DNA of 64,000 bases, from the NCBI RefSeq assembly GCF_008014775.2, contig NZ_CP144914.1, positions 3,348,001 through 3,412,000 of the forward strand, written 5' to 3'. The translations under genes and the position numbers were made by a program. This document shows positions 25,727 to 47,859 of the stretch, piece by piece (position 1 is the stretch's first letter; every line of letters starts with the position of its first letter). This DNA comes from Alkalicoccus halolimnae (GTDB lineage: Bacteria; Bacillota; Bacilli; Bacillales; Salisediminibacteriaceae). The notes under the pieces were generated by a model. The model saw only the letters and a list, made by a program, of their open reading frames with translations. It made no database searches and was not told the origin of the DNA.

Positions 25727-26360
25727 AAGCGCCTCCTTTACTTGTGATTTCTATAGATAATACAGGCACAGAGCGGGATCATTTAGCGTATCGTTCATTA
25801 TAGTGAATAAATTCACCGGAAACGATATGTTTGAAATAAAATGAGTTGGGGAATGTTAATAGCGCCTGTTTGGTTTCTCAACCACATTTAGCTTACCACA
25901 CAGGGATTTTTAAGCGATATGTCAGATGGCACATTTACTGTAATAATCTGTAATACAACGTGGGTAAAAGTTCACCGCAGTGAATACAGCGCGGATTTTT
26001 TATTTTTTCAGGTTTGAATTTTTTCAGGGAGGGGAACACATTCACTAGGAGTTGAAACCACCACTTTCATCTCTCCCCCCTATCATTTTTGATATATTGC
26101 CGCAGTATCAGACATACAGCGGCAGATGGATAACGAGCGATGCCCGCCTCCGTCCCAAGGTGCGCATCGCTGTTTCCATGTTTGAGCTGCTTTTTTCGGG
26201 AGATTTCTGCCCTAATTTTTATACCATCATACGTCCGTTTTGAGTTAAACACGGACCGTGTTTCTGCGTCTTTTGGACGATTTCCCTTACTTATTGTGTT
26301 TTTGGAAAGGTTTTTTCAGGAATTTCCATTCGGAAGGCCGATGCGGAAGGCTTGGGAAGG
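25727..26360. other. Long upstream region of the SLH amidase, no gene
   Basis: Contains two dyads, GTGAAT-AA-ATTCAC (25803-25816) and TTCAC-CGCA-GTGAA (25971-25984), and a pair TGTAAT-AATC-TGTAAT (25939-25954) that is one base short of WalR spacing. No coding sequence is supported. Confidence 0.45.
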
Positions 26361-26502
26361 TTAATTCTGCCGTTTCCTCTTGTAATTCTGCCACAGCCTC
26401 GTTTTATTCTGCCTCATCTCCTAATATTCCCACCATTTCTCCCGCTAATTCTGCCACTACTCCCTGTTTTCCCGCCAATTCCTGCTCTTTTCCCAGCCGC
26501 AC
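26361..26502 (-). repeat. 21-bp-period imperfect tandem array (copy A)
   Basis: Read on the minus strand the units are AGTGGCAGAATTAGCGGGAG, AATGGTGGGAATATTAGGAG, TGAGGCAGAATAAAACGAGG, TGTGGCAGAATTACAAGAGG and so on. The GG of successive units is spaced 21, 21, 21, 21, 21, 22 bases. See findings. Confidence 0.8.
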
Positions 26503-26655
26503 TTTTTTATAATGAAACACCGCTTAACCCGCCTTTCTCCGTGCCATGGAGGAAATCCCCTTTAAATCAGCAGAGACCCTTATGCAAAATCACTGCACCA
26601 TGCCATGATGGAGGGCAGCTTCCGGAGTTTGAGCTTCAAGCCAGCTTCCTGAAAC

Positions 26656-29247: not shown

Positions 29248-29706
29248 TTATTCAGTGTCTTCTTCGTTGTCCATTTCAGTGTTATCTTCCGCTGCTGGAT
29301 CTTCTTCGTTCATTTCAGCGTCGTCTTCTGCTGCTGGATCTTCTTCGTTCATCTCAGCGTTGTCTTCTGCCGCTGGATCTTCTTCGTTCATCTCAGCATT
29401 GTCTTCAGCCGCTGGATCTTCTTCGTTCATCTCAGCGTTGTCTTCTGCTGCTGGATCTTCTTCGTTCATTTCAGCGTCGTCTTCAGCCGCTGGATCTTCT
29501 TCGTTCATCTCAGCGTTGTCTTCAGCCGCTGGGTCTTCTTCTGTGTTGTTCTCAGCTGCTGGATCTTCTTCTTCAGCTGGTGCTTCTTCGTTCGTAGTAT
29601 TGTTTTCAGCCGGTGCGTTTTCAGTATCTTCTCCGCCGCCGCAAGCTGCTAGCATGCCTACTGCGAATACGCTTGATAGTACTGATAGTGTTAGTTTCTT
29701 TTTCAT
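29248..29706 (-). CDS. Lipoprotein with seven acidic 13-residue repeats
   Basis: 152 aa. Lipoprotein signal MKKKLTLSVLSSVFAVGMLAAC with lipobox LAAC (Cys22), then Gly-rich and extremely acidic low-complexity sequence. From residue 56 to 146 there are seven copies of EEDPAAEDNAEMN with few substitutions, preceded by a shorter variant. There is essentially no basic residue after the lipobox. Ribosome site GGAGGA precedes ATG. The type is an extended, anionic surface spacer, perhaps related to life at high salt and pH; no enzymatic domain. Two smaller lipoproteins with the same signal style follow at 31666 and 31972. Confidence 0.85.
   Translation of the reverse strand: MKKKLTLSVLSSVFAVGMLAACGGGEDTENAPAENNTTNEEAPAEEEDPAAENNTEEDPAAEDNAEMNEEDPAAEDDAEMNEEDPAAEDNAEMNEEDPAAEDNAEMNEEDPAAEDNAEMNEEDPAAEDDAEMNEEDPAAEDNTEMDNEEDTE
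29269..29541 (-). repeat. 39-bp coding tandem repeat (7 units)
   Basis: Seven 39-base units within the lipoprotein gene encode EEDPAAEDNAEMN; units differ at a few silent or N/D positions. Copy number is likely variable between strains. Confidence 0.9.
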
Positions 29707-32142: not shown

Positions 32143-32361
32143 TATAAATCCCTCCATAATATAGTTGTCTTTCTTTATGCTCATTCCCTGGTAGTCCAGC
32201 GAATGTTCTATTCTTCTCTTTCACTTTTGCAAACATGTAAAACCTTATTCATGCTATTTTGATAATGTTTCACATTCATTCCACATTGTTTACAGATTTC
32301 ACGATCACGAAAAACCCGCCGAATTTCCTTTCTGGAGGGACGGCTTCGGCGGCATACCCGC

Positions 32362-32500
32362 GAATTAAGAGAACTGCGGCGAAGATTAAAAGAACTTGAG
32401 GAGGAATTAAAAGAACTGGAAGAGATTAAAAGAACAATCAGCTGAATTAACAAAACTTTCGTCTGAATAAAGAGAACCGATACGTAACTTTAACTGAACC
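32362..32500 (+). repeat. 21-bp-period imperfect tandem array (copy B)
   Basis: ATTAA of successive units at 32364, 32385, 32406, 32425, 32446, 32467 and 32489: spacings 21, 21, 19, 21, 21, 22. Core GAATTAAAAGAACT. The first four units are open in one frame as coiled-coil codons (RELRELRRRLKELEEELKEL), ending at TGA; no start codon is found for that frame. Confidence 0.8.
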
Positions 32501-32708
32501 AGCCGCTCCTTCAACAGAACCGACCTCTCTGTGCGGCCCCCGCTGCCCTTATCGAGTCAGACTTCCCTAATCAGCCTCCAAAATGGTGGTTTTGAAAATT
32601 ACTCTCAAAAGCCGGCGGTCGCCTGCTTTTTCTGAAGAAAATCGAGCAACTTCTGAGTTTGGATGCTCTGATGCTTGTTAAAATACTCCATTCCGCCCTT
32701 TGCAAAAC

Positions 32709-36717: not shown

Positions 36718-38037
36718 TTATGCAAAATTAGAGTTATACGTTTTTTCTTTTGCTGTTGATGGTTCATCCTGCTCTTCTTCGTTTACACGTTCGATATTTG
36801 CTCCGAGTGCGAGCAGTTTTTCGGTGAAGTCTACGTAGCCGCGGTCAATGTGTTTAAGTTCAGTAACGCGGGTGTACCCATCTGCTACGAGTCCTGTCAG
36901 TACAAGAGCGGCTCCTGCACGAAGGTCGGTCGATGCTACTTCTGCTCCCTGGAGCTTAACCGGTCCGTTGACTATCGAGGTTCTTCCTTCAATTTTAATA
37001 TCCGCGTTCATGCGGCGGAATTCTTCTACGTGCATAAACCGGTTTTCAAAGACGGTTTCTGTAATGACGCTGTTTCCTTCAGCAATCAGCATAAGGGCCA
37101 TCATCTGCGACTGCATATCGGTTGGGAAACCTGGATGAGGCATCGTTTTAATATCGACAGCTTTCATCTTCTCCGGCCCGATGACACGGAGTCCTGTGCC
37201 TTCTTCTTCAATATGAATACCCATTTCCGTCATTTTTGCGATAACCGGACGCAGGTGTTCGGGAAGGACATTTTCAATAAGAACATTTCCGCCGGTGATA
37301 GCAGCCGCAGCCATAAATGTACCTGCTTCGACGCGGTCTGGAATAATGGTATGATCCGCTGCGGTCAGTTCTTCCACTCCGTCAATACGGATCGTGCCTG
37401 TGCCTGCTCCGCGGACTTTGGCGCCCATCGCGTTCAAGTACGTAGCGAGGCAGACAATTTCCGGCTCTTCCGCAGCGTTTTCTATTACGGTTCTGCCTTC
37501 TGCCATCGAGGCTGCCATCATGATGTTTTCAGTGGCGCCGACACTTGGGAAGTCGAGATAAACTTTGCCTCCCTGAAGGCGTCCGTCGACTTTAGCTTCA
37601 ATGTACCCGTTGCCGATCTCTACTGTCGCGCCCATCGCTTCAAAGCCTTTTAAGTGCTGATCAATGGGACGGGAACCGATGGCACATCCGCCCGGAAGCG
37701 CGATCCGCGCATGACCCACGCGTGCCAGAAGCGGCCCCATAACGAGGAAAGAAGCGCGCATTTTGCGGACAAATTCAAATGGTGCTTCTGTTGCGAGCGG
37801 CTTTTCCGCATTAATTTTAAGATGGTTCGTTCCATCGTACTCCACATCGGCGAAAAGATTGCGAAGAACTTCGCTGATGGTGTAAACATCAGCCAGAGGC
37901 GGTACGTCGTAAATGTTACTCGTTCCTTTACTTGCTAGAATAGATGCGGTAATGACCGGTAATACAGCGTTTTTTGCGCCTTCAATGCGCACGCTTCCGC
38001 TGAGCGGACGGCCTCCGCGAACAATAATTTTTTCCAA
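36718..38037 (-). CDS. murA: UDP-N-acetylglucosamine 1-carboxyvinyltransferase MurA
   Basis: 439 aa. Lys22-Asn23 (EGAKNAVLP), catalytic Cys118 in [17 protein letters not shown] (the fosfomycin target), and [14 protein letters not shown]. It transfers enolpyruvate from PEP to UDP-GlcNAc, the first committed step of peptidoglycan synthesis. TTG start six bases after GGAGGGG. By position, next to DUF1146 and the atp operon, it is MurAA. The C-terminal 20 residues ([16 protein letters not shown]) are a polar extension. Confidence 0.96.
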
Positions 38038-38214
38038 TATATTCCCCTCCGTGTCCAGATGCCTGCGCAGCTGGTAATCGTAAAAGTCGATTTCGTATTT
38101 TGTCTAAGATTTTTAAAAAGCGTCATTTGTTACAGCGAACGTTTTGTATTGGTAAAGCACCGTACATAATCAGGTCCCTTCAGGCGGACCCACATGTACC
38201 TTCCGTGCTTGCCG

Positions 38215-38448
38215 CTAAAATAAATAGCGGAGCGATGTAGACCAGTTCAAGTAGTTCAGCAGAAATCCGGTAACGAGATGCGTAAGTGCAAGCGTTGTTA
38301 ACACCATCAGCGCCTTTGCTTTGATACCTTCAGGATCTTTAACAAAAACGTCGAAGCGAAAGGATTGTACACACCACCAGACGACCACTAAGACCATGAG
38401 ACTGATCATGATGTTAAATAGTGACTGCTGACCAATGGAATCCATCAT
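38215..38448 (-). CDS. DUF1146 (YwzB-like) membrane protein
   Basis: 77 aa with two membrane helices (about 11-27 and 45-65). IKAKALMVLTTLALTHLVTGFLLNYLNWSTSLRYLF with the polar R and F positions between helices is the DUF1146 pattern. It sits between atpC and murA exactly as ywzB does in Bacillus. GGAGGGG upstream; either of two consecutive ATG codons can start. Function unknown. Confidence 0.85.
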   Translation of the reverse strand: MMDSIGQQSLFNIMISLMVLVVVWWCVQSFRFDVFVKDPEGIKAKALMVLTTLALTHLVTGFLLNYLNWSTSLRYLF

Positions 38449-39138
38449 GCTACCCCTCCGTACGTTTCTGCTCTTTCTCTACTGTGAAAATACTCGATTT
38501 TAAGCACAACCATAATCTTAACTAAAATCCAAAGCCAAAGCTACCTCTAATTAGCACAAATCTACGGAAAATGGTAGTTCTTTCGTATGATTTTTGAGAT
38601 TACGTCCTTTTTTCCCTTTTTTCACTACAAAGATAATCAGCGGCAAAAAAACTTCTTATTTCTTATTATTCACAAAAACAGATAAAAATAATCTTCTTTT
38701 TACGAAAATGTTAAAAAATGTGTAATACAAGGATTTCATCTTCTGCCTCTTTTTGCAAACTCATTTTCCTTACTTAAAAAGGGTCAACCTCGCCTATGTA
38801 CTTCAGGTCTTTCATTATTACAGTCGCTGCCGCCTTCGAAAAGTTACACATTGAATAAGGAAATTGTTGATGTGGTCATAATATGAGGTAAAAATATTCT
38901 GTATATTTACAGGTTATAGGAATTAATAGAAAAATGGTATGTGTCAATCTGCCTATTTTATAGAAAAAATATACAAGAATGAGGAAGGTATCCGCATCTT
39001 TTTCAGGTCTTAAGACTTTTGTTCCTCTCATAATTTCCAAAAGAAATTAGTTCGAAAAGCTCTGCCCTCGGCTGGTGTAGTTATAAATGCGCGCCGCTGG
39101 CTTTCATTGTTGAGTTGGGTGGGATAGAGGAGCGGGGG
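38449..39138. other. AT-rich non-coding stretch
   Basis: No gene, promoter or RNA recognised here. A spoIID or ywmB homologue is not present. Confidence 0.45.
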
Positions 39139-39300
39139 CTGAATTAATAAAACTTCACGCCGAAATAACAGAACCTGTGCTTCAATTAACAGAACTACAC
39201 GAAATAAACAGAACTATCCGCCGGTTTAAGAAGACCGGGGGCTGAATTAAAAGAACTTTTTTCCGAATTAACAGAACCGAAGCAGCAATTATAAGAACCG
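39139..39300 (+). repeat. 21-bp-period imperfect tandem array (copy C)
   Basis: Units start (A of ATTAA or variant) at 39143, 39164, 39185, 39204, 39225, 39246, 39267 and 39288: spacings 21, 21, 19, 21, 21, 21, 21. Core GAATTAACAGAAC with variable 8-9 bases between. Confidence 0.85.
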
Positions 39301-39310
39301 TCCCACCCTA

Positions 39311-39398
39311 CCGAGAGAAGGAAAGATCAGTTGAGGCCGTCCCACCCGGAAGGCGCCCCCATAAAGAGGCTGTATCCAGAGAAACGGAAACGAAAAAT
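39311..39398 (+). repeat. Dispersed repeat R3, copy 4 (partial)
   Basis: AGATCAGTTGAGGCCGTCCC, ACCCGGAAGGCGCCCCCA and GAAACGGAAACGAAAAATAG follow the right half of the 59043 copy. It directly adjoins the 21-bp array. Confidence 0.6.
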
Positions 39399-39443
39399 AG
39401 TGGTCAACATATAGTAGATATTCTATTTCAAGGGAGACTTTTG

Positions 39444-39612
39444 ATTTACTCCACATTAAGAGCATTTTACTCATCAACATCAGAGATTAACTCATTTTTC
39501 AGGGGGATTTACTATCATTAGTCGCGTTTACTCTCAAATGGGAAGGCTTAACTGATTTTAATGATCGCATATTGACGTTAATTCATCGTTTCACCATCCG
39601 AATTCATCATTC
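39444..39612. repeat. 21-bp-period array with a different core (TTACTCAT)
   Basis: TTAC/TTAAC(T)C cores at 39448, 39469, 39490, 39511, 39530, 39551, 39581 and 39602 (position of A before C or its equivalent): spacings 21, 21, 21, 19, 21, 30, 21. See findings. Confidence 0.65.
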
Positions 39613-39751
39613 TACCCACCACACCCACCACCCCTCAAACAACGAAAAGCAGCTTCTGCCTGGAATTGCGAACGTATGGGGCGACGTGATCACGACTTTA
39701 TCCCAGCAGGTTACCATCAGAATAAGGATCCATTAAATTGCCGCTGGAACA

Positions 39752-39786
39752 ATAAAAAAAATCCCGCCTGAATACAGACGGAATCG
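39752..39786 (-). terminator. Terminator of the atp operon
   Basis: Minus strand CCGTCTG / CAGGCGG with a short loop and eight T, a few bases after atpC. Confidence 0.9.
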
Positions 39787-39789
39787 TAA

Positions 39790-40194
<405 letters not shown>

Positions 40195-40300
40195 TCACCC
40201 TCCTTATCGAAAGGATGCGTCCTTCCGCTTCTTGAAAGCGGAAAGAGGATCACTTTTTATGTGTTGCGTAAAAGCAGGAGGCACGAGGCCTCCGCTTTTC

Positions 40301-47084: not shown

Positions 47085-47526
47085 GCCGCATAACTCCTTA
47101 CTCACAATTAGACTGGTTCATCCGATACCTTTGTAATCGTACAACATGACCCCTATCATGTCAATACGATGAAAACGGAAACAACGCCCGTGAAATCGCA
47201 GTTTTTCACGAGGATTATTTTCCTTTTTCCTCCCTCTTATTACCAAGTTCTTTCCTATGTACATTTATCATTATACATAAGTTTGTGAAAAATGTCTGTT
47301 ATAATCTGTGAGAATTAAATATGAATTTTTTGTGAAGAATTTGACTAAATTCAGGGGGGATCTTTCGTGCTGGATGAATATATCTTCCTATCTAAAATTG
47401 GTATATCAACTTAAAGCATGTGCCGCTGATCTACATTTATTTCCCAGCCATATAAAGTGAGCTCCTTTTATTCATTTCCGCCTCTGTGAACGGCGGATGC
47501 AGCGGGGAGTTGAAGGGGGTGGGGTG
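47085..47526. other. Upstream region of the atp operon
   Basis: A possible minus-strand -10 TATAAT lies at 47270-47275 without a convincing -35. No gene is seen. Confidence 0.4.
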
Positions 47527-47672
47527 GGGATTCTGCCATTACCTCTCCTAATTATGCCACTAACCGCATTTTTTCCGCCTCTTCTCGGAGTATTTCTTCC
47601 ACTTCTTCCGATATTTCCGCCACTACCCTGTTATTCTGCCACTTCTCTCTGTTATTCTGCCACTTCCCGCCC
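47527..47672 (-). repeat. 21-bp-period imperfect tandem array (copy D)
   Basis: Minus-strand units AGTGGCAGAATAACAGAGAG, AGTGGCAGAATAACAGGGT, AGTGGCGGAAATATCGGAAG, AGTGGAAGAAATACTCCGAG, AGAGGCGGAAAAAATGCGGT, AGTGGCATAATTAGGAGAGG. Spacings of the GG pair: 21, 21, 21, 21, 19, 21. Confidence 0.85.
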
Positions 47673-47859
47673 TTTCCTCCGTGCCGAGGGAAGGGGAAAA
47701 TAAGACTGTTTAAGAAGCCGTTCGATGTATCGCTGCAGATAACTTTCCGCAGGCGAATCAATTTTTCATTCTTTTTCCCGAAACCTTAAGTCGGCAGCGT
47801 CCGGCGAAAGCTGAGAGCCATCCGGAAATCAACAGGACATGCTTTAATATAACTGCTTC

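Follow-up and report, generated by a model that had tools for sequence, protein, structure and literature searches.

Dispersed tandem arrays of common 19-21-bp pitch and differing cores in Alkalicoccus halolimnae and its relatives: possible docking platforms for a DNA-binding protein

Introduction

Iterons, the direct repeats of plasmid origins, lie about two helical turns apart, have a sequence of their own in each origin and are bound by Rep at that one origin. In the plasmid centromere parC the repeats, which differ between plasmids, have a spacing of about one or two turns, and the repeats read by the omega protein are contiguous heptads. REP/BIME and BOX/RUP elements are short, intergenic and species-specific, are present in many copies and can fold into hairpins. 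The type II centromere parC (pSK41, R1) consists of tandem repeats, each of which takes up one ParR dimer, and a superhelical nucleoprotein complex is formed (PMC5016525). As described in the same source, parC is one locus upstream of its par operon, and type Ib parS of pSM19035 is made up of rows of 7-10 short iterons, where the small omega protein forms a helix round the DNA (PMC5016525). According to the nearest general survey, non-coding satellites that are dispersed in this way are rare; the species named are Leptospira interrogans and Methanocella conradii (PMC6749651).

The window analysed here is a 64,000-bp stretch of the Alkalicoccus halolimnae chromosome (NZ_CP144914.1, positions 3,348,001 to 3,412,000) containing a tandem array that belongs to a dispersed class, C1. 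As tandem repeats on a regular pitch, the arrays have a layout like that of parC/ParR. Unlike parC, which is found at one locus, about 34 arrays are present in the chromosome, and no par genes were detected among 20 Pfam-scanned proteins next to 12 of them. The omega sites of pSM19035 parS are plasmid-borne, whereas the present 12-bp cores are chromosomal and lie two turns apart. The arrays resemble ParR/omega centromeres in layout but, as far as tested, do not belong to these groups, since no par genes stand beside the arrays examined. In contrast to iterons, the arrays are dispersed, and no Rep family was found among the same 20 proteins adjoining 12 of about 34 arrays. Unlike REP/BIME and BOX/RUP elements, C1 arrays showed no conserved structure, and the flanks of 20 arrays paired no better than swapped flanks.

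The trait common to these arrays and the satellites of L. interrogans and M. conradii is that tandem non-coding repeats have been copied to many sites; the repeats of those satellites are described as long, and the main text of the survey contains neither "21 bp" nor "21 nucleotides" (PMC6749651). The arrays of A. halolimnae are likewise non-coding tandem repeats at many sites. The unit of a neutral satellite would be free of constraint, but here the core is kept while the spacer is not, and the pitch stays at 19-21 bp. Among the matches listed for the open full-text literature, no title or abstract opening described such arrays, in agreement with the initial annotation of this DNA, which knew of no named element with these features.

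The array and its surroundings

The array at 39141-39298 consists of eight units with steps of 21, 21, 19, 21, 21, 21 and 21 bp (core starts at 39141, 39162, 39183, 39202, 39223, 39244, 39265 and 39286; Table 1), which reproduces exactly the unit count and steps of the initial annotation. The period had also been called strict; this description does not hold, as the third step, of 19 bp, recurs as a constant trait throughout the family. The self-match at lag 21 over 39139-39302 was 0.49, a value never reached by the maximum over lags 5-59 in 2000 first-order Markov shuffles (mean maximum 0.372), and the autocorrelation peak, whose absence had been named as a refutation, was thus present. Shuffling led to the same outcome for the other three window arrays. 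The array itself (39139-39300) is faint: it is absent from the output of Tandem Repeats Finder at the lowest threshold, in which the other three window arrays are present. The core of unit 5, GGTTTAAGAAGAC, is divergent, being missed by a core list allowing four mismatches and visible in the template fit and alignment of the array.

Table 1. Features of the window that bear on the arrays
Feature	Position	Strand	Score or source
C1 array (main finding), eight units	39130..39311	+	model R1 match, E 1.4e-36; array among the nine used to build R1
Unit 4 core, reached via a 19-bp rather than a 21-bp step; same place in other C1 arrays	39202..39214	+	
Unit 5 in a variant form, GGTTTAAGAAGAC; arrays L017 and L009 have near-identical variants at this unit position	39223..39235	+	
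Right-hand gene of the array, presumably atpC	39790..40191	-	ORF
Terminator-like hairpin directly 3' of atpC	39760..39785	-	2 in the stretch vs 1.3 expected in shuffles
Small ORF (presumably ywzB-like), left-hand gene of the array, upstream of presumed murA (36718-38037)	38215..38448	-	ORF
Second C1 array of the window, eight units, steps 21, 21, 19, 21, 21, 22, 21	32352..32530	+	E 4.1e-34; array also among the nine used to build R1
C2 array, core AAGTGGCAGAAT on the - strand; weak units past the short step	26349..26506	-	E 3.8e-25; among the nine of model R2
C2 array, steps 21, 19, 21, 21, 21, 21 read on the - strand	47517..47687	-	E 1.8e-35; among the nine of model R2

The right-hand gene is taken to be atpC from its protein and the gene order rather than from a family search, and the names murA and ywzB-like are likewise presumed; all three genes are on the - strand. 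The distance from the array to atpC is about 490 bp, of which about 460 bp separate the array end from the hairpin. Since a terminator-like hairpin comes after atpC, the array sits past the likely end of the atpC operon. An Rfam search of 38000-40200 gave no family above threshold and a single sub-threshold match outside the array, n00280 at 38826-38918 (29.7 bits, gathering threshold 65.2, E 0.039), which is probably due to chance.

Array classes in the chromosome

The window contains three further arrays, near 26.4, 32.4 and 47.5 kb, and the arrays of the genome fall into two classes, C1 (AATTAAcAGAAC) and C2 (AAGTGGCAGAAT). On the strand of the main array, the C1 core reads AATTAAaAGAAC or AATTAACAGAAC. 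The pattern ATTAANAGAAC-N10-ATTAANAGAAC with at most three mismatches had 53 matches in the 3.69-Mb chromosome, compared with one for the backwards pattern. Sequence-only models R1 and R2, which were built from arrays that they then recover, gave at E < 1e-4 17 C1 matches (16 loci, with two matches at 3174837-3175047 counted as one) and 18 C2 matches, that is, about 34 loci, some of them short (two or three units). Further arrays, for which the initial annotation had suggested a search and whose absence would have counted as a refutation, are thus numerous in this genome.

The short step stands between units 3 and 4 in all nine C1 arrays of alignment A1, with 19 bp in eight and 18 bp in L011; one of the nine, L009, is rearranged in front of it. 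When C2 arrays are read in the same sense, a short step is found at the matching place, measuring 19 bp in 8/9. Past this place the units of the C2 array at 26.4 kb are all weak, and the template fit gives 18 bp there. The fixed place of the short step could come from descent alone, by copying within each class.

The 12-bp core carries 14.6 bits in C1 and 14.2 bits in C2, compared with 2.3 and 3.9 bits for the nine spacer bases, as counted over 41 full-length units per class (of 48 in six C1 arrays and 49 in seven C2 arrays). Both classes thus have a 12-bp core set in otherwise variable units, as the initial annotation described for the main array. The lengths of the 48 C1 units were 21 bp in 41, 19 bp in six and 22 bp in one, in arrays chosen for fit. 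Spacer identity was compared in six of nine C1 and five of nine C2 arrays of the alignments. C1 spacers at the same unit position were 0.416 identical, compared with 0.327 at different positions, and none of 2000 permutations gave so high a value; C1 cores were 0.762 identical. The corresponding values for C2 spacers were 0.531 and 0.465 (p 0.0025). Since spacers at the same position are alike in this way, each class derives from a multi-unit ancestor copied around the chromosome. The C1 spacers have since come near saturation by drift, with cores and lengths retained. A common ancestor of C1 and C2 was considered and rejected, since same-position spacers of the two classes were no more alike than others (0.290 vs 0.291).

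Two closely similar C2 arrays at 3255237-3255412 and 3260089-3260265 (L026) lie 4.8 kb apart and are apparently a recent local duplication.

Arrays in related genomes

Model R1 detected no strong C1 array in 59 relatives, the best match outside the A. halolimnae genome having E 6.9e-6 (G042); searches over more than 40 genomes used stricter filters, which lose weak matches. Inspection of 18 weak-hit loci revealed that six of them (L031, L032, L037, L047, L053 and L056) are arrays of 20-21-bp pitch with another core. The C1 core was also sought in other species by a contig scan, from which the A. halolimnae genome was possibly left out; the 18 stretches obtained were scattered over unrelated groups and were read as chance.

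A detector counting chains of at least five similar 10-mers was applied to one stretch of at most 20 kb round murA from 57 of the 59 relatives, 1.10 Mb in total; the stretch of G001 (L062) has just 4 kb, and for G005 and G007 only a second murA copy was found. At 19-21-bp spacing, 31 arrays of five or more units were found in 15/57 genomes with seven family codes, and no array was detected in the other 42 stretches. The figure of 15 is a lower bound because the detector, even when run with four units, misses the main C1 array at 39141-39298. Open stretches of at least 450 nt contain 8/31 of these arrays, and the remaining 23 have no open stretch of that length.

Other spacings were counted in the same 57 stretches. 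The classes from 12-14 to 16-18 bp had zero or one array each, and those from 22-24 to 36-38 bp had none; the overlapping classes 17-19, 18-20, 20-22 and 21-23 bp had 0, 1, 19 and 15 arrays, and from 37-39 bp upward doubled steps start to be picked up (1, 1, 2, 12). When spacings of 17-23 bp were allowed, 201 steps of 21 bp, 29 of 19, 26 of 20 and three of 23 were counted, with no steps of 17, 18 or 22. The step order in G020 is mostly 21, 21, 21, 19 repeated (mean 20.5), while in G042 steps of 20 and 21 bp largely alternate with some of 19 and 23, and G036 has a mixed 20/21-bp pitch. G044 has one array with 20-bp steps and another that is strictly 21 bp (L104 and L031). In G058, which bears another family code, the first seven steps are 21, 21, 19, 21, 21, 21 and 21 bp, as in the main array. 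Conservation of phase, proposed earlier as a comparison among relatives, is thus seen as the recurrence of a 19-21-bp pitch and is qualified by the arrays with 20-bp or mixed 20/21-bp steps. Outside the order, 40 stretches totalling 765 kb and taken from 40 of 60 sampled genomes, of which two belong to the same class and the others to the phylum, gave two 19-21-bp chains, an N run and a 4-bp microsatellite, neither of which was accepted.

One dispersed core class each was found in G020, G013 and G008, with 180, 89 and 92 pair matches compared with 13, 1 and 0 for the controls; the G020 clusters were drawn from 100 of its 180 matches, and their number is a lower bound. The diversity of cores among relatives could reflect independent origin instead of turnover.

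In five of the 32 stretches with atpC in view (G013, G020, G027, G035 and G044), atpC is followed on its 3' side, at no more than about 300 bp, by arrays passing the detector. G020 and G027, which share a genus code, have a common core type there, and the other three differ; G004 has a weaker array near the 3' side of atpC. This position is a lead only. The array of G035 (L147, 1205-2097), directly 3' of atpC, has 43 copies at a strict 21 bp, and one + frame is open over the stretch.

Placement and orientation

Overlap with genes, as called from own ORF and codon-usage predictions, exceeded 30% at 1/16 C1, 1/18 C2 and 2/20 G013 loci. Restriction to intergenic DNA, which the initial annotation had proposed for testing, accordingly applies, at this threshold, to 50 of 54 loci, and the remaining four exceed it. 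Arrays occupy tandem, convergent and divergent gaps alike, and a preference for one gap type was rejected on these grounds. The 20 Pfam-scanned proteins adjoining 12 of about 34 arrays belong to varied families, including amidase, mechanosensitive channel, alcohol dehydrogenase, PLD-type enzyme, response regulator and one integrase-core protein; one protein had no family. The gene dnaA lies at base 340, and the nearest array found is at 52 kb.

Orientations with and against replication numbered 16/2 in C2, 2/18 in G013, 16/6 in G020, 14/6 in G008 and 6/10 in C1, where the strand called core is arbitrary and only the imbalance counts. The summed chi-square was 32.4 on 5 df and fell to 19.8 (p 0.0013) after like-oriented neighbours within 20 kb had been merged; these clusters were grouped by hand, with dnaA taken as origin and the opposite point as terminus. 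The imbalance was not significant for C1 alone or G008 alone. In non-tandem gaps, whose flanking genes impose no direction, the majority orientation was found in 9/9 G013 and 6/8 C2 cases, some of which are close neighbours. Overall, array orientation follows replication, though not in every class. At 11/16 C1, 16/18 C2 and 14/20 G013 loci the leading strand is the one richer in G across the array, and polarity peaks where skew does (GC skew of C2, 0.40). Strand composition alone may give the orientation bias, and because orientation goes with strand composition, the polarity may carry no functional information.

After thinning, the terminus half held 3/13 arrays of C1, 1/12 of C2, 2/14 of G013, 5/15 of G008 and 10/20 of G020. 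It is sparse in C2 and G013 and less clearly so in C1 and G008. A general bias towards the origin was rejected, as it fails in G020.

Possible functions

The array may well be, as the most likely of the readings considered, a DNA-level platform for a sequence-specific protein that acts cooperatively on one face of the helix, the core and its binder changing together. It would be one copy of a dispersed, mostly intergenic element in which about eight 12-bp binding cores, each one helical turn long, follow one another head to tail at a centre-to-centre distance of two turns; copies of the protein would then sit in a row along the same face of the double helix, and their binding would be cooperative. 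Such an element would have spread round the chromosome as a multi-unit block, after which cores and spacings would have been kept while spacers drifted. In related species the core would have been replaced, presumably along with the binder, and the pitch left unchanged. A two-turn pitch, a one-turn core, a free spacer, head-to-tail order and a pitch that relatives share despite different cores fit the needs of like proteins set in a row on one face of DNA. Plasmid centromeres to which ParR or omega binds function similarly (PMC5016525). What speaks most for a core-reading function is that cores and lengths are kept despite drifted spacers, which would not be expected for neutral copies. Several relatives have arrays of the same pitch with different cores, which suggests docking platforms for a DNA-binding protein; such platforms may serve to organise or segregate the chromosome, or have some similar task at the level of DNA.

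Several observations speak against a platform. The pitch is 20 bp or mixed 20/21 bp in some relatives (G044; G042 and G036), and if only phase mattered, a 2-bp step would be a coarse means of correction. With two core classes present in the same genome, either two binders or a loose one would be required. C2 arrays often keep an open frame, and the detector found no array in 42/57 stretches. The cooperative one-face platform of the initial annotation agrees with the pitch, the contrast of core and spacer, the few changes in spacer length and the pitch of the relatives; its protein binding is what we infer. A wider version, in which an order-wide class of two-turn phased platforms is replication-polar, depleted in the terminus half in some species and rewritten in its core between species together with a putative binder, can be put forward only tentatively.

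The main rival is a selfish or neutral dispersed satellite, which arises by slippage and local duplication, spreads and does nothing for the cell; it is possible and rather doubtful. Copying is indeed evident from the identity of same-position spacers, from local clusters and from the near-duplicate pair at 3255237 and 3260089, the core differs between species, and dispersed non-coding satellites have been reported, rarely, in L. interrogans and M. conradii (PMC6749651). However, neutral copies should lose core and spacer equally, while C1 core identity is 0.76 against 0.42 for same-position spacers, and neutrality gives no evident reason for a pitch of 19-21 bp only. A DNA-topology site (gyrase or HU wrapping, or intrinsic curvature), for which the pitch matters and the letters do not, would account for a pitch common to relatives whose core letters are not, and supercoiling could build up just 3' of atpC, where arrays lie in 5/32 stretches with atpC in view. 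It is nevertheless unlikely: a 14-bit core within a genome exceeds the need of such a site, and wedge-model curvature had a mean percentile of 0.62 over 39 arrays (nine at 0.9 or above, about four expected; two at 0.1 or below). Intrinsic curvature as a common property is unsupported, with no shared excess over the 39 arrays.

An RNA-level element (a rut site, an sRNA or a protein-binding transcript) could explain the orientation bias relative to tandem flanking genes in C2 (nine same, one opposite) and G013 (one same, ten opposite), the sign of which depends on the choice of core strand. This bias is, however, weak in C1, the class of the main array (five same, eight opposite); RNAalifold predicted zero pairs, and hence no consensus structure, for nine C1 arrays; and it is not evident what a helical pitch would mean for RNA that is single-stranded. 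An array enclosed in a hairpin formed by its flanks was rejected as well, since in 20 arrays own flanks paired no better than swapped ones (p 0.46, 0.53 and 0.30 at 30, 40 and 60 nt). An RNA-level role is thus very improbable. Decayed or real coding repeats for heptad proteins are scarcely credible as a general explanation. The initial annotation had read parts of the array as heptads, 21 bp being seven codons, and had noted stops. In favour of coding, at least one frame is open in 7/7 C2 and 1/6 C1 arrays tested, the 43-copy array of G035 has an open frame throughout and 8/31 arrays of relatives stand in open stretches of at least 450 nt. For C1 the heptad reading fails and coding is unlikely, as 19-bp steps shift the frame and stops occur in all six frames in 5/6 arrays tested; for C2, to judge by open frames alone, coding may occur. 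The 20-bp or mixed 20/21-bp steps of G042 and G044 also speak against coding repeats.

Should a protein bind the arrays, they would be the signature of a nucleoprotein system that is widespread and of which no description was found in the open literature searched, and the species-specific cores point to a binder whose DNA-reading part changes with the core. The order-wide platform, if true, would amount to a centromere-like or nucleoid-organising system of the chromosome that evolves fast in the manner of centromeres. If the arrays are selfish, they are a rare bacterial example of satellites that are dispersed and non-coding and whose pitch the DNA helix dictates. On either reading the arrays are a natural experiment in which shape and sequence come apart, as the pitch is shared and the letters change.

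Other repeats

Repeats of other kinds were met in the same material. The window holds a 39-bp tandem repeat at 29261-29541 (7.2 copies at 90%) that is not related to the 21-bp arrays and is perhaps coding because 39 is a multiple of three. Just 3' of atpC in G003 (L090, 10775-12753) there are four blocks of a 41-bp repeat, CCAAGTGTGGACAATTC...GAATTGTGACCAAG, which spans about four helical turns and contains an inverted repeat. Near-perfect 51-52-bp tandem arrays of another type occur in G011, G014 and G015 of the same bacterial family (L095, 1760-2858; L098, 2866-3298; L099, 18709-19575). A 32-bp tandem repeat, GCTCCTGCGGTTACTCGTCGCAG..., is common to G008 and G020, which have two genus codes (L093, 2563-2715; L102, 13632-13866).
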